Positions 6,957-24,383 of a stretch of 64,000 nucleotides of DNA are shown piece after piece. The position numbers and the translations under genes were made by a program. The notes beneath the pieces were generated by a model that searched no databases, was not told where the DNA came from, and worked only from the letters and a program-made list of their open reading frames with translations. This DNA comes from Enterococcus caccae ATCC BAA-1240 (GTDB taxonomy: Bacteria > Bacillota > Bacilli > Lactobacillales > Enterococcaceae): NCBI RefSeq assembly GCF_000407145.1, contig NZ_KE136473.1:248001-312000 (forward strand), read 5' to 3'. The number at the start of each line of letters is the position of its first letter. The stretch's first letter is position 1.

Positions 6957-7157
6957 ATTTTACACATCCTTTCATACATATTTTTCCTGCATCAAAACAG
7001 GAAGAGCTTCTATTATTTTACCACAGTAACTGGTTAAGACTGTAAAAAATAAGGTTGAAGAGTTCAAATAGTGACAGAAAAATAAAAGGAAGTTGGGATA
7101 ATGTCAACAGAAATCTGGGAGTTTGCACTCACTATTTCCACGTATACTAAGTCCATC

Positions 7158-7180: not shown

Positions 7181-7208
7181 CGATAATCATAGTCGCCCGA
7201 GACTTTAA

Positions 7209-7427
7209 ATGAGAGGAGATGTCAAATCGAAATTGAACGGTGTTTATTTGGATAGTAACCGGCATTTAACTTTTGAGCAGCAAGATAAGGCAATCAAAAA
7301 ACAGTTGAAAGTTATCGAAAAGCTGCAAAAAAGGGTAAAAACAGAACAACAACGAAAAAATCAGCTTGCATCTCAATTAAAAGAATTAACACAGCAGCAA
7401 AACACTAAGGAGGAAATGAACAGATGA
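7209..7427 (+). CDS. Small coiled-coil protein, first gene of the tail operon
   Basis: A 72-residue charged protein predicted to be a single long coiled coil (KQLKVIEKLQKRVKTEQQRK and following). I do not recognise the family. The ATG at 7209 has no clear ribosome site, so the start is uncertain. Its stop overlaps the start of the major tail protein gene (ATGA) and its last codons contain the strong AAGGAGG used by that gene. This ties the two together translationally. It could be a remnant of a longer phage gene. Confidence 0.55.
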   Translation: MRGDVKSKLNGVYLDSNRHLTFEQQDKAIKKQLKVIEKLQKRVKTEQQRKNQLASQLKELTQQQNTKEEMNR

Positions 7428-7933
7428 CAGCATTAAGCGGAGTAGATGTAGTTTGGCGTTTTCGTTTAGCCGAAGACGAAGGAAATGAAAGTGCGTGGGG
7501 ACTAGCCTACAGTACAGAAAATGGTTATTCAAAATCGAAAGAAAGTGAATCGACTGTTACGAAAGACGGGAGTGTTGTAACGCCAGGAGCAACTGAAACA
7601 ACAGTAACGGCTACAACATTATACAAAATCGGTTCAACTCAAATCGATAAATTAGAAACAGCGATGGATGAAAATAAACGTGTCCAAATTTGGCGCATCA
7701 ATACCAAAGAAATTGGTACAGGAAACAATGAAGGAAAATATAAAGCAAAATATTTTGAAGGTTTCTTTACATCATTTGAAGAAACGGATTCAGCAGAAAA
7801 TAAAGTTGAGTACTCTTTAGAATGGGCAATCGAAGGCGCTGGGAAGAATGGTTTTGCAGCATTAGAATTGGATACTTCTGAAGGCGGCGATTATGAATTT
7901 AAAGACACTGTAAAAGTTGAAACGAAAGCATAA
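7424..7933 (+). CDS. Phage major tail (tube) protein, TP901-1 type
   Basis: A 169-residue structural protein that should polymerise into the tube of a long non-contractile tail. The sequence (MTALSGVDVVWRFRLAEDEG, then a TVTATTLYKIGSTQIDKLET segment and a C-terminal GAGKNGFAALELD) resembles the TP901-1 and Listeria monocin (LmaA-like) tail tube family. A strong AAGGAGGAAATGAAC ribosome site precedes it. A hairpin terminator directly follows, as often seen after highly expressed tube genes. It is the first clear structural gene; no head-tail connector genes precede it. Confidence 0.82.
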   Translation: MTALSGVDVVWRFRLAEDEGNESAWGLAYSTENGYSKSKESESTVTKDGSVVTPGATETTVTATTLYKIGSTQIDKLETAMDENKRVQIWRINTKEIGTGNNEGKYKAKYFEGFFTSFEETDSAENKVEYSLEWAIEGAGKNGFAALELDTSEGGDYEFKDTVKVETKA

Positions 7934-7956
7934 TCATCCCAGACTTAAATACTTGA

Positions 7957-7986
7957 AAGAGGTTAGATTCTAGCCTCTTTTATATA
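7957..7986 (+). terminator. Hairpin terminator or attenuator after the tail tube gene
   Basis: AAGAGGTTAG (7957-7966) pairs with CTAGCCTCTT (7970-7979), with a 3-base loop and a T-rich tail. Partial termination here would raise tube-protein mRNA relative to the downstream tail genes. Confidence 0.65.
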
Positions 7987-8038
7987 GTTTATTGTAGCGA
8001 GACAATTATTGTAGTTTTAAAAATTAGGAGGAAATGAC

Positions 8039-8380
8039 ATGGAATTATCAATGAATGAAAAAAACTTTGACTGTAAATTCGGGTATGGATTTCTAAAAGA
8101 AATCAACAAACGGTACTCAGTAGAACGCGGCGGCATGCAATTAAAACTAGGAGTTGGGGCAATCGTTTCAAATCTCCTTTTATCAGATGTAGATACGCTT
8201 TTTGAAGTTTTGTTGATTGCAAATATGACAGAGAAACCTCGAATGACAGTCAAATTTTTAGAAGATTATGTTGAACAAAAAGGGACAAAAGATTTATTTG
8301 AAGAAGTGATCGATGAGCTAAAAAAGTCGGAATATACCGGAATGATGACCAGCAAGATGTTAGAAGAAGCACAAGCGTAA
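8039..8380 (+). CDS. Tail assembly chaperone, short form (gpG-like)
   Basis: A 113-residue protein in the position of phage tail assembly chaperones, between the tube and the tape measure genes. Its start follows TTAGGAGGAAATGAC. The frame contains a canonical slippery heptamer at 8320-8326, close to its end. Slippage by -1 there fuses it to the next frame, giving the long gpGT-like form. Chaperones of this kind coat the tape measure protein while the tube assembles. Family assignment rests on position, size and the frameshift signal. Confidence 0.75.
   Translation: MELSMNEKNFDCKFGYGFLKEINKRYSVERGGMQLKLGVGAIVSNLLLSDVDTLFEVLLIANMTEKPRMTVKFLEDYVEQKGTKDLFEEVIDELKKSEYTGMMTSKMLEEAQA
8320..8326 (+). 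other. Programmed -1 ribosomal frameshift site (A AAA AAG)
   Basis: In the chaperone frame the codons read CTA AAA AAG, which makes the heptamer A-AAA-AAG, one of the most efficient bacterial -1 slip sites. The -1 frame is open from 8317 to 8721, so the slip lies inside the overlap of the two frames (8317-8380). A -1 frameshift between tail chaperone genes is a conserved feature of long-tailed phages. Confidence 0.8.
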
Positions 8381-8721
8381 ATAACATAGATTTTGATGAA
8401 GTATATGAGCAGGTTCGTTTAAACTGTTTACGTTTCTTGAAGATAGAAGATTTTAATGAAATAGATCGTTTGACGATGCCTGATTATGAGCTGCGAATGA
8501 AAGCCTATCAATTAAAGCAATTGGACCGACAATATGAAATTCATATGCAGGCGTGGGCTACAGTCATGGCAGGACAGACAAGAAAAGGCAGACCCGTTTT
8601 TAAAACTTTCGATAAATTCTTTGATTATCACAAAGCAGAAGAGAAAATACTCGGCAGGGAAAAAAGAACTTCTCCTGATAAAGAGAAGCTTCAAAATTGG
8701 ATCGCGAATTTTAATTCATAG
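8326..8721 (+). CDS. Tail assembly chaperone, frameshift extension (gpT-like)
   Basis: This -1 frame begins with a TGA at 8314 and no good start codon or ribosome site of its own, yet stays open to 8721. It is therefore best read as the extension made by slippage at 8320-8326. The joined protein (8039-8326 plus 8326-8721) would be about 227 residues. The extension includes the conserved-looking segment KIEDFNEIDRLTMPDYELRM followed by YQLKQLDRQYEIHMQAW. Independent translation from a TTG at 8437 is possible but has no ribosome site. Confidence 0.75.
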   Translation, partial: VGIYRNDDQQDVRRSTSVNNIDFDEVYEQVRLNCLRFLKIEDFNEIDRLTMPDYELRMKAYQLKQLDRQYEIHMQAWATVMAGQTRKGRPVFKTFDKFFDYHKAEEKILGREKRTSPDKEKLQNWIANFNS

Positions 8722-8736
8722 GAAAGGAGGAGGGAA

Positions 8737-10737
8737 ATGGAAAAAAAGATTGATGTAATAGCGGTTTTAAAAGCTGTAGATATGGGATTAAACACTTCCC
8801 TTGATGGAGCTTTAGAAAATATTGAAAGAGTACATGACAGTATTGTAAAACTTTTTGACTCCTCGATGGATTCTTCAACAATTACGGCAAATTTTAATGA
8901 AGTAAAAGCTTCATTTACCTCGCTAAATAGTTTGCTAAATGGGTTTGGATTATCTAATGTTCAGAGTTTAATTACTAGTTTTGGAGGAATTACACAGGAA
9001 CAAATTGGTAAAGCCGCAGGAACTTTTGATCTATTTGCTGATAAAGCAAATAGTGCAACAGATAAAGTTGGGAGTATTTTTGGTAAAGTTGGCTCATCTT
9101 TTAAAAATATACCAGGAAGTATTTTGCCAGCTTTCGACGTAATTGAAGGTAAAGTTAGTGGTTTTACAAATGATGTAGCTAGAACGTTCAGTAATCTTGC
9201 TCCGAAAACAGTACTATCTATGCTGAACATGGAAACTGGTGTAGCGTCAGCAATGGATAAAATAGGGTTAAAAGCGATAGACGCGGAAATTTTCTTTGAA
9301 TCAGTTTCTGAAGGAATGAAAAATGCCACTCAAAACGTTCCGCTTCTAACTAAATCTTTGGGTGGAATAGGCTCAAGCATTCAGAAATCAGCAGGTGTGG
9401 GAACAACAGCTATGAGTACGATGGTTCAAGGATTAACCTCAGTTTTTGGATTTGCACTCAAAGCATTAGGTCCAGCAGCTATTTTAGGAGTAGCTCTTGT
9501 GGGGCTGGGTTTAGTTAATAATAAATTTGGTGGTCAATTACAAGAGATGATTACAACAGCAATTGAAAAGGGCCCGGAAATTATTACTGGATTTGTGGAT
9601 GGAATTATTTCAAAATTACCAGCTTTAATAGCCTCAGGAACACAACTAGTTGTTGGCTTGGCAGAAGCTATCTCTGTAAATCTACCTGTGATCATGCAAA
9701 GTGCAGTTGACCTGATAGGCGCACTAGTTCAAGGTGTAATCGAAAGCTTACCTACTCTTATCCCAGCCGCTTTAATGTTGATTGAATCATTAGCGACAAG
9801 TTTATTATCTGCAGCGCCACAGCTGTTAATGACCGGATTAGATCTATTGATTGCTTTAGTAGATGGGATTATGGCTAATAAGGATCAAATCATTACTACG
9901 GTAACAAATATTATCCAAGCGTTCACTACAAATATTACGAATAAATTACCTGAGATTATTAAAAAAGGGGTTGAAGTTTTAACAAAACTTGCAGAAGGTA
10001 TCGCCTCTGTATTGCCAACCTTGATACCAGTCGCTATAGAAGCAATTGCAACGTTAGTAGGAACACTACTAGAGCAGTTGCCAACCTTAATTGATGCAGC
10101 AATAAAAATTGTCGCAACTTTGTGTAAAGGGTTATGGGATAGTTTACCAGATATTTTATTAGCTGCTGGTAAGTTGTTATGGACATTTATTGAAGGAATT
10201 ATGGGACTTTTACCTGATATTGCCACAGCAGGATGGAGAATGGCCAATGAAATAATCAAAGAAATTACAGGTGTAGATTTATTTGAAATTGGTGGGAACA
10301 TAATACAAGGATTGATAGATGGGATCGAATCAGGAGTTAAATGGCTTTTAAAAACATTGGGGAATATTGGTAGCAGTATTCAAAATTTCTTTACTGGTAA
10401 GTTCAAAATCCACTCACCATCACGCTGGATGCGAGATGAAATCGGGGCAATGCTACCAGCCGGTTTAGCCGTAGGTATCGAAAGAAATACCCATGTAGTT
10501 GACCAACCAATGGACAAGCTAGCCTCTCAAATTATGTTACCTAGCTTAGACAGCCTAGATCAACATTTAGAAACGGTCCAAGATGTATCTGTCCAATCTA
10601 GCAGTAAGCAAATGATGATCCAAACAAAACAACCAGCAACCTTCAACATCAAACTGGGCAACCAACAATTCAAAGCGTTTGTTTCAGATATTTCAGAAGC
10701 AATGGGACAAGATTCTGCTATCAATTTAGCATTTTAG
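8737..10737 (+). CDS. Tail tape measure protein
   Basis: A 666-residue protein expected to set tail length, roughly 100 nm at the usual 0.15 nm per residue. That makes it short for an enterococcal siphovirus. The middle (about residues 240-470) is a long run of amphipathic and hydrophobic helical repeats (for example LPTLIPAALMLIESLATSLL). The C-terminal part carries IHSPSRWMRDEIGAMLPAGL, a segment typical of Gram-positive tape measures. AAAGGAGGAGG is the ribosome site. No frameshift or stop disrupts it. Confidence 0.88.
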   Translation: MEKKIDVIAVLKAVDMGLNTSLDGALENIERVHDSIVKLFDSSMDSSTITANFNEVKASFTSLNSLLNGFGLSNVQSLITSFGGITQEQIGKAAGTFDLFADKANSATDKVGSIFGKVGSSFKNIPGSILPAFDVIEGKVSGFTNDVARTFSNLAPKTVLSMLNMETGVASAMDKIGLKAIDAEIFFESVSEGMKNATQNVPLLTKSLGGIGSSIQKSAGVGTTAMSTMVQGLTSVFGFALKALGPAAILGVALVGLGLVNNKFGGQLQEMITTAIEKGPEIITGFVDGIISKLPALIASGTQLVVGLAEAISVNLPVIMQSAVDLIGALVQGVIESLPTLIPAALMLIESLATSLLSAAPQLLMTGLDLLIALVDGIMANKDQIITTVTNIIQAFTTNITNKLPEIIKKGVEVLTKLAEGIASVLPTLIPVAIEAIATLVGTLLEQLPTLIDAAIKIVATLCKGLWDSLPDILLAAGKLLWTFIEGIMGLLPDIATAGWRMANEIIKEITGVDLFEIGGNIIQGLIDGIESGVKWLLKTLGNIGSSIQNFFTGKFKIHSPSRWMRDEIGAMLPAGLAVGIERNTHVVDQPMDKLASQIMLPSLDSLDQHLETVQDVSVQSSSKQMMIQTKQPATFNIKLGNQQFKAFVSDISEAMGQDSAINLAF

Positions 10738-10750
10738 AAGGAGGGAAAAA

Positions 10751-11518
10751 ATGTATTATTTTGAAGACACAACGAAAAAAGTCCACAAAGATGATTTGAT
10801 CCTTCCTTCTTCAGCTATGCTGTATGACGGCCTTTATCTTGAAAAAATGATCACAGGCTACCGTACACTAGCTGTAACAGGTAGGGAAATGTTATCTCTC
10901 AATATAGAAACGCAAGAAACACAAGTCGGTAGTATCAAACTAAATCAAAAGTTACCTGCTAGAACAATCAAAGTCAGCTATCAATTAATTGGAAAAGACG
11001 CAAAAGATGTGCAAAAAAAATACCATCAGTTGATGCGTTTACTTTATAAAGAGTCAGATGTCGAGATTCGGTTTAAAGATGAGCTAGATTACCATTATTA
11101 TGGACAATATATGACAACAGATGATGTTCGCGGAGATACCAATAGTATTATTGCTAGTTTTGAAATTCTTTGTACAGATCCAAAAAAATATTCTGTATTA
11201 TTACAAACAGATAGCACAATCACCACCTATTTACCCTATCCGACAACCCCTGAAAAGATTGAAGTTATTATTGAAAAATTTGGACCGTTAATGATTTCAA
11301 ATGGTGATAAAACAATTAAAATCACCAGCTACAATTTAAGTGCAGGTGATCAAGTCACTTTTGATTTTTTAAAAGGAAAAGTTTTTGTAAATAAGCTGGA
11401 TCAAACATTTCTACTCGATTTAGAAAGTGATTTTGAAAATTTTACGATCCAAGAAGGTCAAACTATTGGTTGTAGCAATGGGTCGATGATTATTTCTTAT
11501 CGGGAGGTACAACTATGA
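10751..11518 (+). CDS. Distal tail protein (Dit-like)
   Basis: A 255-residue protein in the canonical Dit position between the tape measure and the tail-tip protein. In siphoviruses of Gram-positives Dit hexamers form the hub joining the tube to the baseplate. The sequence has the family's early MYDGLYLEKMITGYRTL region and a mid-protein FEILCTDPKKYSV. An AGAAGGAGGG ribosome site precedes it. It overlaps the next gene by four bases (ATGA) and its last codons contain that gene's GGGAGGT ribosome site. Confidence 0.8.
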   Translation: MYYFEDTTKKVHKDDLILPSSAMLYDGLYLEKMITGYRTLAVTGREMLSLNIETQETQVGSIKLNQKLPARTIKVSYQLIGKDAKDVQKKYHQLMRLLYKESDVEIRFKDELDYHYYGQYMTTDDVRGDTNSIIASFEILCTDPKKYSVLLQTDSTITTYLPYPTTPEKIEVIIEKFGPLMISNGDKTIKITSYNLSAGDQVTFDFLKGKVFVNKLDQTFLLDLESDFENFTIQEGQTIGCSNGSMIISYREVQL

Positions 11519-14322
11519 CCAAAAGTGTTTATTTCTTTGATGAACGTCAGCATTTACTTCGAATCGTTAAAGAAAATGAGTTGATAGAAGTTATTCAGGA
11601 AAAAGAGATCACCTCAAATAAAGAAGAATTGATGAATGATACTTTAAATGTATCTACAATTTATGATGAAGAGCTAAAGCAAGCGGCTTACATGGCTGTA
11701 AAAGAAGAAAGTTCTTTCTATAGTTTGTACAGAATCATTTTAGACAGGGAAGAGGAAAATCTCTTATCCTTTGTTGGGATTAGTTTTGCGCCTGATGAGT
11801 TAGATTCCTATGTTGTTAAAAATGTTCAAGTGAAAAACGAATCGATCAAGAATACCATACAAAAGTTACTGGTAGAAACAGAGTGGCGCATAGGTAAACT
11901 AGACTCTAAATTACCTGTAATAACAGAAGATTTTCGTTTTCTCTCTGTACGTGACGCTTTAAAAAATATTCAAGCACAAGGTTGCGAAATTCTATTCAAA
12001 TATAAAATTGATGGTATCGGTATTACGGATAAATGGCTAGAAGTCTATCGTGAAATTGGCGAACAAAGCAATCAACGTTTTACGTATGGTGAGAAAGCAT
12101 TAAGTATTGTAAAAGAACAAGACCGTAACCAAGTGTATACAAGTTTAATCGGTCGTGGTCGTGGCGAAGATGTTGGTGACGGCAAAGGGAAGCGAATCGA
12201 GTTCACTAATGTAGAGTGGAAAAAAGCCAATGGTAAGCCTTTAAATAAACCAAAAGGACAAAATTGGCTGGAATTTCCTGAGATGACCAAACAGTATGGC
12301 ATTCCCTTAAAAAATGGTGGGATGAGAAGACGGGAAAAAGTCATCACGTTTGATGAAGAAGAAAGTCCAGAAAAATTACTACAAAAAACATATGATTCAC
12401 TCATCGAATATTCTCGTCCACTTGTTCAATTTAAAACAGAAATCTTAGGTGGAGATACAATTGGTAATACCGTAACGATCCACCGTCATGATCGAAACTA
12501 TCACTATCAAACACGAGTTTTTAAAGTGAAAATCGATCGTTTAACAGGCAAAGTCGAAGCTGGTTTAGGAGATAATATTACAAAAAGTATTTCAAAAGCT
12601 ACCTCTGATTTAAAAGGGAATGTCGATTCTTTGGACGAAAAGAAAATGACGTTTTATGATTCAGAAGAAATTTCAAAGTGGCAGGATGACATTATCCGTG
12701 GAGCAAAAGGTGGCTCGATAAAACTGATGAACGGAATCGAAACGGGAAAGTCAAATAGCCGTGAACCATATCAACAAGTTTTTATGGATGGAAACTCGTT
12801 AGATAATAGTAAACACTTTTTAGTCATGAATTCTGAAGGGATAGGTTTTGTTAAAGGAAAGTTTACAAACAAGCCTAAAACGGCTTGGACGATTGATGGG
12901 AAATTTAACGCTGATTTCATTCAAGCAGGTACATTAGAGGGAGTTACTGTCCAAACAAAGAAAGACAATGATTTTCAAATTAAGTTACAGTCTAATGGAA
13001 CTATTGCTTTTAGAAATCAAAAAAAGAACGAAGAAGAAGCTTGGATTGGTGCTGTAATCGATGGGAAAACAAAAGAACCAGTCGGTGTTGCCGTTTGTCA
13101 AATTCCTGGATATCAGTTTTCAATTGGTTCAGCGGTTTCTAGAGAAGAAAGAGCACCAAGCGCGGTGTTTGAAATCCCTAAAGAATCCAACGCAAATAAG
13201 AAAATATGGCGATTACACGGCCAAGGAGAAATTAATGGTGACTTAAATATCACTGGCAATCTAAACATTAAAGGGAAATTATTCCTAAATGGCAAGGAAA
13301 TCACTGGTAATGGGAATGGCAGTGGCGGTAACGGAGGTACCGGTGGAGCATATCCACCTGAGATAACAACTCAAACAGATAAATTCGCTTGGGATTTGTG
13401 GAGCTTTCTAACTTCTAATGGCTATAGCAAAGCCACAGCTGCTGGTATTTTAGGAAATGTTCAACAAGAAACCGGTGGGACGATGGACCCAAATACAGAC
13501 CAAATTGGTGGACCAGCCTATGGTTTAGTGCAATGGGACGGCTCAAGCTATCCACTAATTGGTAGTCCAACTTGGGATGGTCGCGAGTACGTTAAACGTT
13601 TGATTGGAGCCGCTGGTATTACAAATGATTACCAATCAACATTAGCGCAAGCAAAATTAATTGATTGGTGTATGTACAATGGGCAGTGGATCGGCGCGGT
13701 TAATCCAACGAGTGTTAGTGGTTTTAAGGCAATTACAGACCCAGCTATAGCTGCGTATGCTTTTGAAATGAATTTTGAACGACCTAAAAATGCACATCCA
13801 GAAAGACAAGGCTATGCCCAAGAATGGTTTAACAAATTTAAAGATTTAAAACCATCAACTGGAGCAGGCAAAGCGGGGTTGGATCATTTAGAATCATTAG
13901 TTGGTCGCTATTGGGGCAATGGTCAATGTTATGCTGTACCAGCAGAATATTCAGGTTTTCTGGGTGGCTGTGGTTTAGGTGCTCAAACGAACTATCCTTT
14001 AAGTCATGTAATCGGAAATACTGAAGCTGCGGCTGATATTGGTAGCTCGTATGATTGGGCTGCGGTTGGCTGGAAAGTTATCTATCAACCGGAGTATAAA
14101 GACTTAGTGACAGGAGCCATAATCAACTGGAAACGTGGAGGAAATATTGGCGGATTCAATGTCGACTATACTTACGGACATACAGGTGTCATCAGAGGAT
14201 TAACAGCTGGTGGATTCCAAACATATGAGCAGAATATCGGAAAAGGACAAATTATTGAAAGATACGAACGTCAATGGGTTGGGGCAAGCGAAATCAGTTC
14301 AATTGTCATCCCACCCAAATAA
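11515..14322 (+). CDS. Tail-tip (Tal) protein with tail-lysozyme and CHAP domains
   Basis: A 935-residue tail-tip protein. Residues about 1-370 are the prophage tail endopeptidase/Tal baseplate domain. A beta-rich region (about 400-590) ends in a Gly/Asn linker (NGNGSGGNGGTGG). The region about 620-780 resembles the phage tail lysozyme family (TAAGILGNVQQETGG, AYGLVQWDG). The last about 145 residues form a CHAP amidase/endopeptidase-like domain, with the catalytic Cys in GNGQCYAVPAEY and His in YTYGHTGVIRG. It would both contact the cell surface and open peptidoglycan locally. It is fully open with no damage. Confidence 0.88.
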   Translation: MTKSVYFFDERQHLLRIVKENELIEVIQEKEITSNKEELMNDTLNVSTIYDEELKQAAYMAVKEESSFYSLYRIILDREEENLLSFVGISFAPDELDSYVVKNVQVKNESIKNTIQKLLVETEWRIGKLDSKLPVITEDFRFLSVRDALKNIQAQGCEILFKYKIDGIGITDKWLEVYREIGEQSNQRFTYGEKALSIVKEQDRNQVYTSLIGRGRGEDVGDGKGKRIEFTNVEWKKANGKPLNKPKGQNWLEFPEMTKQYGIPLKNGGMRRREKVITFDEEESPEKLLQKTYDSLIEYSRPLVQFKTEILGGDTIGNTVTIHRHDRNYHYQTRVFKVKIDRLTGKVEAGLGDNITKSISKATSDLKGNVDSLDEKKMTFYDSEEISKWQDDIIRGAKGGSIKLMNGIETGKSNSREPYQQVFMDGNSLDNSKHFLVMNSEGIGFVKGKFTNKPKTAWTIDGKFNADFIQAGTLEGVTVQTKKDNDFQIKLQSNGTIAFRNQKKNEEEAWIGAVIDGKTKEPVGVAVCQIPGYQFSIGSAVSREERAPSAVFEIPKESNANKKIWRLHGQGEINGDLNITGNLNIKGKLFLNGKEITGNGNGSGGNGGTGGAYPPEITTQTDKFAWDLWSFLTSNGYSKATAAGILGNVQQETGGTMDPNTDQIGGPAYGLVQWDGSSYPLIGSPTWDGREYVKRLIGAAGITNDYQSTLAQAKLIDWCMYNGQWIGAVNPTSVSGFKAITDPAIAAYAFEMNFERPKNAHPERQGYAQEWFNKFKDLKPSTGAGKAGLDHLESLVGRYWGNGQCYAVPAEYSGFLGGCGLGAQTNYPLSHVIGNTEAAADIGSSYDWAAVGWKVIYQPEYKDLVTGAIINWKRGGNIGGFNVDYTYGHTGVIRGLTAGGFQTYEQNIGKGQIIERYERQWVGASEISSIVIPPK

Positions 14323-14347
14323 TCAATTTTTAGAAAGGAGTGAGTAA

Positions 14348-15223
14348 ATGTCAATCGTATATCCAATTTTCTTATCAACGACACAACCAAACGACAATAT
14401 TCCATCAATCATGATTCGTCAATTTGACGAAGGAACCCAAGTCTTGGCTGTGACAGTAACGGAACATGGAAAACCAAAAGACATTTCAAATTTAACCCCT
14501 TTTTTCTGCGTCAAACAAGGGCATCATGCTGGACTTGGACTATCCGAGCAAAAAGTTACTAAAGTTATCGACGCCAAAAAAGGGAAATTAGAATATACAT
14601 TAACAAATTACGATATGCAAAATGTCGGGGAAAATACTGCTTACTTTAGCTTTAGAGAACTTCAAAAAGATTTAAGTTGGAGACAACAATTTTCGACGAG
14701 AGATTTTGCTTATCAAGTCAAAGAAAGCATTTACGACGAGGGAATCAAAGACAGTAACTATATTTGGACATTTGAAGAAATCTTACGCTATTTCACTGAA
14801 TGGGTGAAAACATGCCAGGAGATTTATGATGATTGGTATTTAGTAGCACAAGAAGAATTGCAGCGTATTATTGCAGAGTTTCAAAGTTGGATCACAACAA
14901 ATCAAGAGCGATACGATCAATGGACGACAGTTCAAAGAGCAGAATTCGATCAATGGTTTGCAACGATCAAAGAAATCTTAGATGAAAATGTTGCGGGGAA
15001 TCTTTTAAATTTAATTGAAGAGTTAAAACAAGCACATTTCACGTTGAAAAGTGGTGAAGCTGGAATCCTTAGAACGATCCGAGATGATAAATTTAGCTTA
15101 AATCACGGCGTAACCAAATTAGGAACAGTGACACATAAAAAAGAAGCTTCAGCTTTAGTAATAGCTGAAATTGATAGTGAAAAACAAAAGACTTTCTTCA
15201 TAAGAAAGGTAGGTTCAGTTTGA
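14348..15223 (+). CDS. Baseplate upper protein (BppU-like)
   Basis: A 291-residue protein whose N-terminal half (YPIFLSTTQPNDNIPSIMIR, then NVGENTAYFSF) matches the BppU N-terminal domain of lactococcal and enterococcal phages. It links baseplate hub and receptor-binding proteins. Residues about 145-230 are helical with repeated Trp/Gln segments (WITTNQERYDQWTTVQRAEF). The C-terminus ends KVGSV, a motif shared with the next two proteins. The stop and the next ATG overlap by one base (TGATG). Confidence 0.82.
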   Translation: MSIVYPIFLSTTQPNDNIPSIMIRQFDEGTQVLAVTVTEHGKPKDISNLTPFFCVKQGHHAGLGLSEQKVTKVIDAKKGKLEYTLTNYDMQNVGENTAYFSFRELQKDLSWRQQFSTRDFAYQVKESIYDEGIKDSNYIWTFEEILRYFTEWVKTCQEIYDDWYLVAQEELQRIIAEFQSWITTNQERYDQWTTVQRAEFDQWFATIKEILDENVAGNLLNLIEELKQAHFTLKSGEAGILRTIRDDKFSLNHGVTKLGTVTHKKEASALVIAEIDSEKQKTFFIRKVGSV

Positions 15224-15453
15224 TGGCAAATGAAGTAGAAATAAAAAAAGTCATGGAAACGGATGAAGCGGGTGTACAACGCCAAGTTTTTCCAGAAACA
15301 CACGTTAGTGCAATCCTCGGTTTAGATAAAATCGAAACAGTAGGAAGCGGTGTGACTTCGATCAATGGAAAAACGGGAGATATTACGTTGACTGCTAAAG
15401 ATTTAGGCGTTGAAGGAACAGGAATATCAATAGAGAAGGTGGGAACAGTATGA
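15223..15453 (+). CDS. Small tail-tip module protein 1
   Basis: A 76-residue protein. Its N-terminal half contains VFPETHVSAILGLDKIETVG, related to the starts of the next two proteins (PKTHVNAVEGL and PKTHTSAIDNF). It continues with SINGKTGDITLTAKDLGVEG, a segment common at the start of phage fibre proteins. It ends EKVGTV. The ATG at 15223 overlaps the BppU stop, so translation is coupled. It is probably a structural adaptor or fibre base; I cannot name a closer family. Confidence 0.65.
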   Translation: MANEVEIKKVMETDEAGVQRQVFPETHVSAILGLDKIETVGSGVTSINGKTGDITLTAKDLGVEGTGISIEKVGTV

Positions 15454-15770
15454 CAGATATCGTCGAATTAAAAAGTGATGGTGTTGTTGTTTATCCTAAA
15501 ACACACGTAAATGCGGTGGAAGGTTTAACAACAATCAAAGGTGAAAAAGGAGATATAGGTCCAGCAGGTCCGAAAGGCGCAACTGGAGCAACGGGTGCAG
15601 TTGGTCCACAAGGTTTAAAAGGTGCAACTGGACCACAAGGACCAGCAGGAGTCAATGCAACAACGACTGTAGCTGCAACACAAACTGCTAATGGTTTGAT
15701 GAGTGCAGCTGATAAGAAAAAACTAGATACATTACCAACAATAACGTTTAGTAAGGTGGGAGCAGTATAA
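15450..15770 (+). CDS. Small collagen-like tail fibre protein
   Basis: A 106-residue protein. Residues about 1-30 share the YPKTHVNAVEGL module with both neighbours. Residues 31-67 are twelve uninterrupted Gly-X-Y triplets, and a helical tail (NGLMSAADKKKLDTLPTITF) follows. Collagen-like repeats are typical trimeric rods in phage tail fibres. It ends SKVGAV. It starts within the upstream stop (ATGA). Variation of the triplet number between strains would be expected if it is a fibre spacer. Confidence 0.75.
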   Translation: MTDIVELKSDGVVVYPKTHVNAVEGLTTIKGEKGDIGPAGPKGATGATGAVGPQGLKGATGPQGPAGVNATTTVAATQTANGLMSAADKKKLDTLPTITFSKVGAV

Positions 15771-16291
15771 TGGCAGATATCGTACAATTAGAAGAAAAAG
15801 GGAACTTGCTTTATCCAAAGACGCATACAAGTGCTATTGATAATTTTGATGAGACTGTTGTGAAGAAAACAGGGAATGAAACTATTTCAGGGGTTAAAAA
15901 TTTTAAAGATGGGATTCAAATTAATGGAGAAAATTTAATCAACGACAAAATATATTCATTGGCAAGTATTCCACTTGGTTTTGGAGTAATTGGTGGGTTA
16001 AATAGAGTTGGCAATTTGGTCACTCTATCAGTACACGCTAATCAAAATAATACAAGAAGTAACGGACAGTCAAATTTGGCCGAAAAAATTCCACTAGGTT
16101 ATAGACCTACACAAATGCAGTGTATTCCAGCTATGATTTCAATTGGAAAAACAATAGAAACAGGGAGATTTTTAACTCAAATTATTCGTCCTGATGGTAG
16201 TATGCAGACGTATAACAAAGGTATGGATGTCGCTCCGTTAAGTATTAGTTTTAGCACAACATGGATTACAAATGATCCAATCCCAGTTTAA
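15770..16291 (+). CDS. Tail fibre / receptor-binding protein candidate
   Basis: A 173-residue final gene of the tail operon. The N-terminus repeats the module seen in the two preceding proteins (LLYPKTHTSAIDNF). The segment TISGVKNFKDGIQINGENLI is typical of phage fibre shafts. The remaining about 120 residues look like a small beta-rich head domain (NLAEKIPLGYRPTQMQCIPA). By position and architecture it is the best candidate for the host-recognition tip. It lacks the C-terminal KVGxV motif, in keeping with being the last cistron. Confidence 0.7.
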   Translation: MADIVQLEEKGNLLYPKTHTSAIDNFDETVVKKTGNETISGVKNFKDGIQINGENLINDKIYSLASIPLGFGVIGGLNRVGNLVTLSVHANQNNTRSNGQSNLAEKIPLGYRPTQMQCIPAMISIGKTIETGRFLTQIIRPDGSMQTYNKGMDVAPLSISFSTTWITNDPIPV

Positions 16292-16390
16292 AAAATAAAA
16301 AGTTTAAGTAATATTCGCAAATTAATTAAAAAATCTATTTATGTATTTAAGATAGGCAAAAATGTTTGATTAATGATATTTTATTTTAAA

Positions 16391-16447
16391 TAAGGACACT
16401 TTACTAGTTATCACGTTTATTTTCTAGTAAAGTGTTCTTACTTTTTT
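16391..16447 (+). terminator. Strong terminator ending the tail operon
   Basis: A 17-bp stem (16391-16407 with 16424-16440, one G-T pair) has a 16-base loop and is followed by CTTTTTTG. It separates the tail operon from the MarR-ABC operon. The remaining sequence between 16292 and 16509 shows no gene. Confidence 0.9.
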
Positions 16448-16509
16448 GTTCACATGTCTTGAACTGATTAGAAAGGAATTTGTTTAGTATTGCTCAATTA
16501 AAATTCTGC

Positions 16510-20700: not shown

Positions 20701-20719
20701 AGATATACGTTTAAAAGAA

Positions 20720-20793
20720 TACGCCAAGAGAGATTCGAACTCCCGACCGCTCGCTTAGAAGGCGAGTGCTCTATCCAGCTGAGCTATTGGCGC
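20720..20793 (-). tRNA. tRNA-Arg, anticodon TCT
   Basis: The 74-base cloverleaf on the minus strand begins GCGCCAATAGCTCAGCTGGA. The anticodon arm is CTCGCCT-TCT-AAGCGAG and the T arm is GTCGGGAGTTCGAATCTC. The acceptor stem closes with a G1-U72 pair and an A discriminator; CCA is not encoded. It reads AGA codons. It stands alone between the ABC operon and the L21 operon. Confidence 0.95.
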
Positions 20794-20914
20794 AAAATAT
20801 TAACGCAACAAAATTTATTATAATGAACATCTAAAACAAAGTCAATCATAAATTAGAAATAACAACAAAGTTTTTTTGAAAAGTAGTTTATATCGCTAAA
20901 TCACTAAGTTCTTA

Positions 20915-22103: not shown

Positions 22104-22168
22104 ATTCTGGTTATACAAACACTTGAATACGGTTTTGAATGCGGTTGGTTAAAAGTTAGCGTATTTTG

Positions 22169-22474
22169 CTAACTTATCAGCCTTTTTTTCTTAGTTAAGT
22201 GAGTATATACATCCATTGTCATTTCTATGGAACTATGCCCCAGTTGCTCTTGAGCTTCTTTCATTGATGTGCCACTTTCAAATAGCATAGATCCATGGGT
22301 ATTACGATATCTATGAGAACCTCGTATATCCGAAAAGATAATAGAGGTTGCTTTGATCTCATCTGAAAAAAGAAATTCTCTTTGTTTGAGTTGCCAGCGT
22401 TCCAAAGTATGAATAGTTTTGTCATCTAGCGAAATTATTCGGTTGGAGTTTAAGGTTTTAGGTGTAGAACCTTT
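22169..22474 (-). pseudogene. Tyrosine recombinase (phage integrase) C-terminal remnant
   Basis: About 101 codons on the minus strand encode only the C-terminal part of a tyrosine integrase. GSTPKTLNSNRIISLDDKTI is followed by the catalytic-domain end (HRYRNTHGSMLFESG, LGHSSIEMTMDVYTH) with the H-R-Y-R and nucleophile Tyr regions recognisable. An in-frame TAG (22477-22475) directly precedes it and no N-terminal half is found. This is the decayed end of a prophage integrated after rpmA. Confidence 0.8.
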
Positions 22475-22842
22475 CTAGTCTTTCTTTGTTTTAGAAAGGT
22501 TTTTGTCTACTGTAACGGTATTATTTTTGAAATCAATATCATTCTATTGTAAAGGAAAAACTATTTATAAAGAAAAATAAATTTTCTTTACGAAACACTT
22601 ATTTAATAAGTTTTACTGAAAAAAGAGTGGAAGTAAAGTTATCTTTCAATAGGAACTTTGCATGTATAATGTTGTGAAATAAGGGAATAATTAAAAAAAT
22701 AGATACAAAAATTTCAATTTGAGTGTACTAGGTTTGTAAAAATGCTGTTGTTTTTCGAAAACTATACACCCGTTCTATATATTGGGGCTATAAGGCTGAA
22801 GCTTTATAGATGGATAGTTTTTATATAATAATAGGAGAGTAT
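22475..22842. other. AT-rich spacer without a recognisable gene
   Basis: The stretch is very AT-rich with many stops in all frames. The only structure noticed is an AACTATACACC motif near 22759 that recurs near 22881. It is probably eroded phage DNA between the integrase remnant and the fragments below. Confidence 0.5.
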
Positions 22843-22910
22843 ATGTGTATATATGTGGATGCAACCACTAAAAATTTTTCAACTATACACCTTTTAAAGA
22901 TGGAGGTCAA

Positions 22911-23084
22911 ATGATAACAGAAATTGATATTCAAAATAATATAAGAAGATCACTAGCACAAAATGACTGTTTTATTTATTAAGGAAATGTCGGTAAAGTA
23001 AAAATACAAGTTGGTTGATGGTTTGATACAGGACTACCAAAAGGGTGGCTGGATTTATCTGGCTGGTATGTAATACACAGGTAA
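22911..23084 (+). pseudogene. Small phage-type protein frame with two nonsense codons
   Basis: An ATG at 22911 with a GATGGAGGTC ribosome site opens MITEIDIQNNIRRSLAQNDC. It meets a TAA at 22980-22982, continues in the same frame (GNVGKVKIQVG), meets a TGA, and continues WFDTGLPKGWLDLSGWYVIH to a TAA at 23082-23084. Three coding-looking pieces in one frame suggest a 57-residue gene killed by two point mutations. A tiny upstream frame (22843-22914, 23 codons, TAGGAGAG site) overlaps its start. The family is unknown. Confidence 0.5.
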
Positions 23085-23273
23085 ATATATAGTTTATAGC
23101 CTGTGGGTATTTAATTAATATTCGGGTGTCTTGTACTTGTATAGTCATCGCTTATGTGGTGATTTATTATATTGGGAGATTTATGACTGAATTGTGATAG
23201 TTTTTATAGATAAATGTACCTTATACTAATGTTGTAAGATCTTACAAAAACAAAAGTTAGGAGGTAATAACAT

Positions 23274-24383
23274 ATGGCAAAAACAATCGGAGAAGTAAGG
23301 AGTTTTCTCGACAGTCTCATTGGTAAAATAACTGTCGATAAATCTGATTCTGGACTAAACGGGCAGTGCGTGAGTTTGATTAAGAATTTACTTGAATTCG
23401 TTGGAGCGCCTAATCCATACGCTGCGCGAGGAAATGCTAAAGACATTCCAAACACATATGTTTCTCAAGGGATTGCAAAAGTTGGTAGCGGTACACTCAA
23501 CATAGCAGTCAATAGAAATGGTGGCGGTGGCTATGGACACGTATGGATAAAAATCGGTTCTGATAGTTGGCAAGCAAATTGGAATGGATTCGCTGTCAAG
23601 AAGAATGTCGGAGAAGTTGCTGTTACAGATATTTTAAATCTAGATCAATGGATTTCAACTAGCAACACAACAAATCCTGAAGGGAAAGCAACTACTTTAG
23701 GTACTAAAGGTGAAGCGTTAATCAAAAAATTTGAAGGATGTAGACTTACAGCGTACGATCTTGGGGATGGAATGATTACCATTGGTTGGGGACATGCAGA
23801 ACCAAAAGGACAAACAAGTTTAGTCGCTGGGGTAACGACATGGTCTCAGGCTCAAGCAGACGGTCAGTTCCAGAAGGATATAGTGACCTATGTAAATGCA
23901 GTAAATAGCTACTTTGTCCGTTCTTTTAATCAAAACCAGTTCGATGCAATGGTAAGTTTCACTTATAATAGCGGTACTGGGGTCTTTGCAAGAGATAATT
24001 GGGATAAGAGTGCTTCCAATAGTTATATTACGGAATCACTCGCTAATTACATTAATAAGGGAACAATATTTGAAGAGGGCTTAAGAAGACGTCGCCAAGA
24101 GGAAATTAATCTATTTAACACACCAGTAAGTGGTAGTGAAGTAACAATTAAGGAGGATGAAGATATGACAGAATTTGCTATTTTATATGGAACAGGGGTA
24201 TATTATGTATGTGGAACAAAAATGGTTCCCTTGACCACTGCTACGCAATGGAGCGTATTGAGATCGGTCTATGAACAGGTACAAGAACATAAGACAGGAA
24301 AAGCAACGCCAATCAAAGTAATGGATTGGAGAAATAACCAAGCAACATTTGATGCGTATGCAAAAATTTGTGGATTAAAATAA
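23274..24383 (+). CDS. Phage endolysin: CHAP + GH24-type lysozyme + C-terminal binding domain
   Basis: A 369-residue wall hydrolase without a signal peptide. Residues about 20-120 are a CHAP domain (Cys32 in NGQCVSL, His89 in GGYGHVW). Residues about 143-275 are a phage-type lysozyme (Glu154 in KKFEGCRLTAYD, Asp162, Thr169, then IGWGH). Residues 298-369 form a separate small domain, probably wall-binding. TTAGGAGGTAAT is its ribosome site. The frame is intact although flanking phage genes are decayed. No holin is visible beside it. An internal start at 24165 may give the binding domain alone. Confidence 0.88.
   Translation: MAKTIGEVRSFLDSLIGKITVDKSDSGLNGQCVSLIKNLLEFVGAPNPYAARGNAKDIPNTYVSQGIAKVGSGTLNIAVNRNGGGGYGHVWIKIGSDSWQANWNGFAVKKNVGEVAVTDILNLDQWISTSNTTNPEGKATTLGTKGEALIKKFEGCRLTAYDLGDGMITIGWGHAEPKGQTSLVAGVTTWSQAQADGQFQKDIVTYVNAVNSYFVRSFNQNQFDAMVSFTYNSGTGVFARDNWDKSASNSYITESLANYINKGTIFEEGLRRRRQEEINLFNTPVSGSEVTIKEDEDMTEFAILYGTGVYYVCGTKMVPLTTATQWSVLRSVYEQVQEHKTGKATPIKVMDWRNNQATFDAYAKICGLK
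24165..24383 (+). CDS. Endolysin C-terminal domain from an internal start
   Basis: An in-frame ATG at 24165 (codon 298) is preceded by AAGGAGGATG (24150-24159) at ideal spacing, a stronger signal than most genes here. Translation would give a 72-residue domain (MTEFAILYGTGVYYVCGTKM and on). The E. faecalis phage endolysin Lys170 is known to make extra free binding domains this way and to assemble them with the full-length enzyme. The same is inferred here, but the domain itself is not a family I can name. Confidence 0.6.
   Translation: MTEFAILYGTGVYYVCGTKMVPLTTATQWSVLRSVYEQVQEHKTGKATPIKVMDWRNNQATFDAYAKICGLK

Follow-up and report, generated by a model that had tools for sequence, protein, structure and literature searches.

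The window analysed here, a stretch of 64,000 nucleotides from Enterococcus caccae ATCC BAA-1240 (contig NZ_KE136473.1, positions 248,001 to 312,000; the whole genome comprises 3.55 Mb in 7 contigs), carries at 7209-16291 an operon with the tail gene set of a TP901-1-type siphophage, in TP901-1 order and with open frames. It is quite probable that this locus supplies the structural half of a domesticated, monocin-like tailocin of the F type, a system split into a tail locus and a second locus for regulation and lysis. Gene identity, synteny, selection, the co-distribution of the two loci and a promoter box common to both carry this view. An earlier reading of the letters of this DNA (the original prediction) had already proposed a candidate F-type tailocin, and the comparison supports it: of the 22 genus genomes compared, 17 have the operon at the same site, and for nearly all tail genes the ratio of nonsynonymous to synonymous changes (dN/dS, omega) is much lower than 1. 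With somewhat less confidence, we favour the wider proposal of a genus-wide regulon whose two loci have been apart since before the species diverged and are tied only by an ArpU-type box, and in which species exchange separate cassettes for tube length (tape-measure alleles of ~668, 766 and 921 residues), for the tip enzyme and for the receptor-binding head.

All genes of the operon lie on the forward strand. The major tail tube protein (MTP, 7424..7933) is recognised by PF06199 (Phage_tail_2, 1.8e-13) and TIGR02126, and is followed by the tail assembly chaperones G (TacG, 8039..8380; PF12363 Phage_TAC_12, 3.2e-21) and T (TacT, 8437..8721; phrog_441, 3.4e-31). Here the original prediction needs correction: the two look like one programmed -1 frameshift unit, in which a slippery heptamer A AAA AAG at 8320..8326, found in 17/17 loci, would lead from G into GT, the T frame being open just upstream, from 8317. 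The tape measure protein of 666 residues (8737..10737; phrog_1204, 1.8e-66) precedes the distal tail protein Dit (10751..11518; PF05709 Sipho_tail, 1.5e-11, and PF22768; TP901-1 ORF46 in 4v96, 1.2e-58) and the tail-tip protein Tal (11515..14322; PF06605), which combines a tail lysozyme (PF18013 Phage_lysozyme2, 1.9e-27) with a CHAP-like domain that stays below threshold (PF05257, 23.7 bits against a 26-bit cut-off) and matches Gp16 of PDB entry 9m7n at 1.5e-230. The upper baseplate protein BppU (14348..15223; PF10651 BppU_N, 1.4e-34; TP901-1 ORF48 in 4v96, 8.2e-37) is followed by orf77 (15220..15453), a small conserved baseplate-region protein kept in 17/17 loci (omega 0.10), by a collagen-like tip or fibre protein (15450..15770; PF01391, 5.8e-8) and by a BppL-like receptor-binding protein (15770..16291) whose residues 29-113 match the TP901-1 ORF49 baseplate protein BPP in the PDB at 1.4e-4. 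The latter scores 24.0 bits against PF18338, below the cut-off of 25.8, and its predicted structure, with a mean pLDDT of 45.9, was set aside.

The comparison set comprised 22 genomes of the genus, including the window's own (handle G000), and the tail loci of 16 relatives were fetched, giving 17 loci in all; one further locus in G004 (L048) is a different one and was excluded. The tube protein is 94-99% identical in the 16 other genomes, and the operon sits at one and the same site in all 17, with RpiR and 6-phospho-beta-glucosidase genes upstream in 16/16 fetched loci and either MarR-ABC genes or rplU downstream in 15/16, neither falling within the stretch taken from G003. Among the bearers are E. 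ureasiticus, E. plantarum, E. ureilyticus, E. quebecensis, E. crotali, E. termitis, E. rivorum, Enterococcus sp. DIV0212c and sp. 5H, which we take to be relatives of E. faecalis. In G006 orf72 is broken and in G007 BppU is in two pieces; otherwise gene content is alike in all 17 loci. The structural tail frames are fully open in 16 of them, so that the canonical order and intact frames noted originally are borne out in these loci. The same is true of the absence of head, connector, integrase and repressor genes: no open reading frame (ORF) of such size or kind lies within the operon, packaging and replication genes are likewise absent from the locus, and no head genes were found at the site in any of the 17 loci, where the extra ORFs of relatives are all small and unassigned, the largest having 131 residues (family searches covered the main genes only). 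No sheath family, the marker of R-type (contractile) particles, appears among the matches of the operon proteins.

When 147 relatives were searched with Dit, the close matches were confined to the genus and the best outside it was 49% identical; phage tube proteins fall below 60% identity in 87/87 records and relatives of Tal in 270/270, and a megablast search returned no near-identical phage tail. In four genomes (G004, G012, G016 and G021) a close tube protein is missing, and the stretches taken next to rplU, only 6.5 kb in G012, contain no tail; G016 shows a weak, 22% tape-measure match there.

Selection on the operon was measured as median pairwise omega, with saturated pairs discarded and the BppU of G007 excluded. 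Values are 0.029 for MTP, 0.061 for TacG, 0.053 for TacT, 0.073 for Dit, 0.060 for BppU, 0.096 for orf77, 0.113 for the collagen-like protein and 0.125 for Tal, beside 0.009 and 0.021 (rpiR) for flanking controls. The dN/dS comparison that had been proposed as a check thus gives 0.03-0.13 for most genes and 0.28 (0.278) for the tape measure, so that strong purifying selection acts on the majority of the tail genes. For the receptor-binding protein omega reaches 0.757, with a maximum of 1.24, values obtained with an unreliable alignment of its head.

The regulatory half of the proposed system lies elsewhere. ArpU-family late regulators occur in 21/22 genomes, and the E. caccae arpU that resembles those of other tail-bearing genomes is found at C2:840894-841313, separated from the tail operon by about 575 kb. 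On one side of it, divergently oriented, stand an ImmA/IrrE-type peptidase (Peptidase_M78) and an Xre repressor (HTH_3); on the other side of arpU (TIGR01637) follows a holin of the Phage_holin_4_1 family. The remark that no holin, adjacent lysin or regulator was to be seen stands for the operon itself and probably has its answer here, regulator and holin being present at a distance in the same genome. ArpU, peptidase and repressor occur together in 16/17 tail genomes and also in G020. An MFS or CBS-domain neighbour is shared with G000 in 16/17 of these module loci, neither being present in the stretch fetched from G006, and a holin homologous to that of G000 lies behind arpU in 16/17; G014 has another member of that Pfam family instead. 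Directly behind the holin an Amidase_5 endolysin is encoded in G003 and G014, and in G006 a frame about 2.7 kb further on, which runs off the stretch, is 35% identical to the G014 lysin over residues 20-125; because of these endolysins and the related frame, the module probably once had a full lysis cassette. In E. caccae a portal at C2:812908, together with another ArpU (C2:808105) and another holin (C2:830580), suggests a prophage whose end falls about 9 kb short of the regulator module. The module is not part of this prophage, since it is kept in genomes without a portal of PF04860 or PF05133. Beside the module of E. caccae (L093, 5703-7220) there is a gene for a trypsin-like serine protease of 505 residues, to which no counterpart ORF was seen in six other module loci compared.

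An unusual promoter box is common to the two loci. The tail operon promoter (7087..7148, forward strand) has AG at 7087, 7109 and 7120, the last within AGTTT, followed after 18 bases by TATACT at 7143-7148, and this arrangement, AG at -33, -11 and 0 with AGTTT-N18-TATACT, is present in 17/17 tail promoters. Right behind arpU and before the holin there is a site with the same spacing, in which AG at -33 is present in 14/17 loci, AGTTT in 11/17 and TANACT in 14/17; it was positioned by means of a GGGAG/GAAAG anchor chosen by eye, with one alignment per locus. A position weight matrix (PWM) built from the 17 tail promoters alone ranked the arpU-holin site first in 12/17 module loci and among the top 3 in 17/17, out of 12,874-35,874 positions per locus; the 17 loci are kin and do not count as independent tests. 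With the 41-column box alone the site came first in 14/17 and among the top 3 in 16/17, and none of 30 permutations of the box columns placed it in the top 3 of any locus. A generic -10 element as the cause of the match was considered and rejected, the -10 columns alone giving a top 3 position in 1/17. The arpU loci of phages and satellites provided a further control: with the combined PWM the best plus-strand match fell -30 to +7 bases from the arpU stop in 5/9, with the tail-only PWM in 3/9 and with the holin-only PWM in 1/9. This control offers partial, supporting evidence, as the ends of arpU may be alike as coding sequence.

Gene distances correlate at 0.82 between core and tail, 0.86 between core and module and 0.92 between tail and module (15 genomes, Mantel p 0.0005; G003 was omitted from these tests and from the core tree because its 6-phospho-beta-glucosidase is cut, and G001 from the tests as it is without the module), which fits long vertical inheritance of whole loci, although many forks of the trees are unresolved. 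In G004, G012, G016 and G021 no module lies beside the CBS gene, and their ArpU relatives are only 36-50% identical; in these four genomes, which have neither locus, the flanking CBS protein is also more diverged (85-87%).

Within this vertical frame parts of the operon vary as units. The start of the receptor-binding protein is constant, its first 19 residues being invariant in all of the 10 sequences (of 17) that were aligned and residues 1-20 having a mean identity of 96% over 16 relatives; the heads are mostly unrelated (mostly 4-20% identical). Tape-measure lengths over the 17 loci are 666-670, 725, 766, 806 and 921-923 residues. The lysozyme region of Tal comes in two main alleles, 83-97% or 40-42% identical to that of G000, with G014 between them at 60%, and these do not track species: G018 and G007, close relatives, have the other allele. 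Between G000 and G013 (Enterococcus sp. DIV0212c) the stretch from TacG into the tape measure (about 8094-10493) is 98-100% identical in DNA, whereas the rest of the operon is mostly 79-89% identical, reaching 97% in shorter stretches, and the receptor-binding heads of the two are unrelated. Cassettes therefore still move between species.

We propose that the two loci act together as follows, the induction cue, protease action, ArpU binding, particles and killing all being predictions. Stress would release the ImmA-type protease, which would remove the Xre repressor; ArpU would then be made and would activate two promoters with one box, that of its own holin (in some species holin and endolysin) and that of the distant tail operon. 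The operon would yield a headless tail, with a tape-measured tube, a baseplate of Dit, Tal and BppU, a lysozyme/CHAP-like tip and exchangeable receptor-binding heads, while the holin would permit lysis, the wall hydrolase coming from the module, a prophage or the host. Released tails would adsorb to related strains and kill them, probably through wall cleavage and a breach in the membrane. Since prophages and satellites carry ArpU too, the tailocin regulon might also be switched on by resident phages.

Several observations weigh against a split tailocin. No tail-terminator protein was recognised in the operon. BppU lies in two parts in G007 and orf72 carries a stop codon in G006; the former may be a sequence error, because adjoining ABC genes of that assembly are split too. 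The putative link of ArpU to the tail operon is drawn from promoter likeness, and the box before the holin is inexact in its AGTTT and TANACT elements. Behind the holin no endolysin was seen in the other 14/17 module loci. The two loci also part company: G020 has the module and no tail, its tail site being closed (GNAT and MarR genes 144 bases apart), and G001 has the tail and no module. The absence in G020 looks like a loss, because its sister in the core-gene tree, G015 (100/99), has the tail; in the module tree G020 groups with tail-bearing G018 (97/92). For G001 a larger deletion or a gap is likely, because a flanking core gene is absent there too. The co-distribution of tail and module may rest on few events, as the four genomes with neither locus have more diverged copies of the flanking CBS protein.

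The retention of holin and regulator without a tail in G020 would also suit a domesticated tail with another job, such as wall remodelling, adhesion or release of cell content, the main effect then being lysis through the distant holin; phage tail-tip proteins can bind host surfaces, as excerpts of PMC3675006 relate for PblA/PblB. We think this unlikely, as receptor-binding heads that vary and tip enzymes that are swapped are easier to reconcile with changing targets than with a constant housekeeping function.

Very improbable is a prophage remnant early in decay, which the original prediction had kept as its alternative and in which head, integrase and regulation would be gone and the tail would be next. 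The operon ends near a tRNA-Arg gene in four genomes, a classic type of prophage site, a lysin beside decayed sequence lies downstream, and the virus collection IMG/VR lists the locus as viral contigs of 8.8-10.8 kb. Against this, the structural frames are open in 16/17 loci, where BppU of G007 is the only split structural gene and head genes are wanting throughout; omega is 0.03-0.13 in most genes at high dS; the frameshift site is kept in 17/17, promoter and leader are conserved, cassettes have been exchanged recently and no att repeat was found at the loci tested. Genus-wide purifying selection largely refutes decay, and no disabling change was seen in this strain. That head and packaging genes elsewhere use this tail, as in a split phage or gene-transfer agent, is hardly credible: an SPP1-type or HK97-type portal exists somewhere in G000 and in six other tail genomes, but 10/17 tail genomes are without a portal of PF04860 or PF05133, the two families searched, and the tail site has no connector genes.

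The proposed split tailocin has its nearest parallel in Listeria. Monocin tail genes belong to the TP901-1 lineage, and the proteins described here match the same lineage (TIGR02126; ORF46, ORF48 and ORF49 in 4v96). As described in excerpts of PMC6872733, the monocins of Listeria, for example of L. monocytogenes 10403S, resemble our operon in having tail genes without capsid genes, a genus-wide spread and vertical inheritance. The layout of the module mirrors the monocin switch, with repressor and protease on one side and early genes on the other. The early position is taken here by an arpU gene, for which LmaC or LmaD is a candidate counterpart. The monocin is a single cluster of 17 genes with a holin-endolysin lysis module (PMC6872733, in the same excerpts), whereas here the tail and the regulator-holin locus lie about 575 kb apart, with an endolysin beside the holin in few loci; the repressor, the MpaR/ImmA-type protease and the lysis genes are thus found at that distance and not in the tail cluster. 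Since the excerpts of PMC6872733 mention similar clusters for "some Enterococcus" strains, the kind is not new, and the original view that an enterococcal equivalent would be new goes too far. The two-locus build, the shared box and the swapped cassettes were not met in the literature searched, which left out most subscription papers.

Enterococcus also has a known element of comparable make-up, pp2 of E. faecalis V583 (EF1276-EF1293), which according to excerpts of PMC3675006 belongs to the core genome. Its Table 1 entry gives repressor, replication, tail and lysis genes as present and integrase, portal, head and packaging genes as absent; no excision was seen, and the authors of PMC3675006 call it a phage remnant. 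It forms one cluster of 14.6 kb, in contrast to the two loci here.

Phage TP901-1 itself shares with the operon the MTP family, Dit (ORF46), BppU (ORF48) and BppL/BPP (ORF49) as detectable relatives, and differs in that head and packaging genes are missing here. The collagen-like protein is presumably an addition relative to the TP901-1 tail. F-type pyocins and rhizoviticin come from Gram-negative bacteria and from another tail lineage, with regulation linked to the tail genes. Like the predicted product of this operon, they are flexible headless tails used against relatives (PMC10811719).

If the two-locus reading is true, tailocins need not be single gene clusters, and split ones will escape searches that demand adjacent regulator and lysis genes and be classed as prophage remnants or small viral contigs. 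There would also be a concrete ArpU box with its regulon to test, a natural range of tape-measure lengths for studying tail length, and, in environmental relatives of E. faecalis, a group of particles that are probably narrow in spectrum.

The 5' untranslated region of the operon contains a leader element, GTCGCCCG(T/A/G)GAC...AAATGAGAGG, at 7192..7216 on the forward strand, with a small hairpin and a probable Shine-Dalgarno sequence. The exact pattern occurs once each in 16/22 genomes, at the tail locus, and as a variant in G011, the 17th tail genome; its 25 bases (hairpin GTC-GCCCGW-GAC plus AAATGAGAGG) are nearly invariant in 17 genomes, and the downstream coding start varies. An Rfam search of the leader returned no known RNA family, a single sub-threshold match to ylbH falling inside the tube gene. 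The first gene, orf72 (7209..7427, forward strand), encodes a coiled-coil protein of uncertain start codon, with a core of 34 residues open in 16/17 loci and an omega of 0.16. The ATG at 7209, taken originally as its start, is part of the conserved leader, and in 7/16 relatives a stop follows in its frame within 8 codons; it is probably not the true start. A hairpin with a 13-pair stem behind the tube gene (7954..7982, forward strand) is a possible attenuator. The operon ends in a terminator at 16396..16448 on the same strand, a 12-bp stem followed by a T run, which was read directly from the sequence, its loop lying outside an automated hairpin listing restricted to loops of at most 8 bases.

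Further downstream, a tRNA-Arg(TCT) gene lies at 20719-20794, and in relatives without the MarR-ABC genes (L035, L044, L045 and L047) it stands close behind the operon. It is a possible old prophage integration site; no att repeat longer than 12 bases was found at the tRNA-Arg gene in five loci tested. The region behind rpmA, at 22160-24383, contains a short antisense ORF that by eye resembles the terminal part of a tyrosine integrase, together with decayed sequence and a lysin (Phage_lysozyme, 369 residues) that is intact. The description of the downstream phage genes as decayed is thus partly right, decayed sequence being present, and partly wrong, in that the phage-type lysin at 23274-24383 is intact. 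As the lysin of the operon it was rejected: relatives at 84-90% identity (G002, G003, G017 and a second copy in G000; that of G005 is partial) have other positions in their genomes. In E. plantarum a 131-residue ORF (L037, 13072-13467), which by eye resembles an IS200-type transposase, separates the tail operon from MarR.

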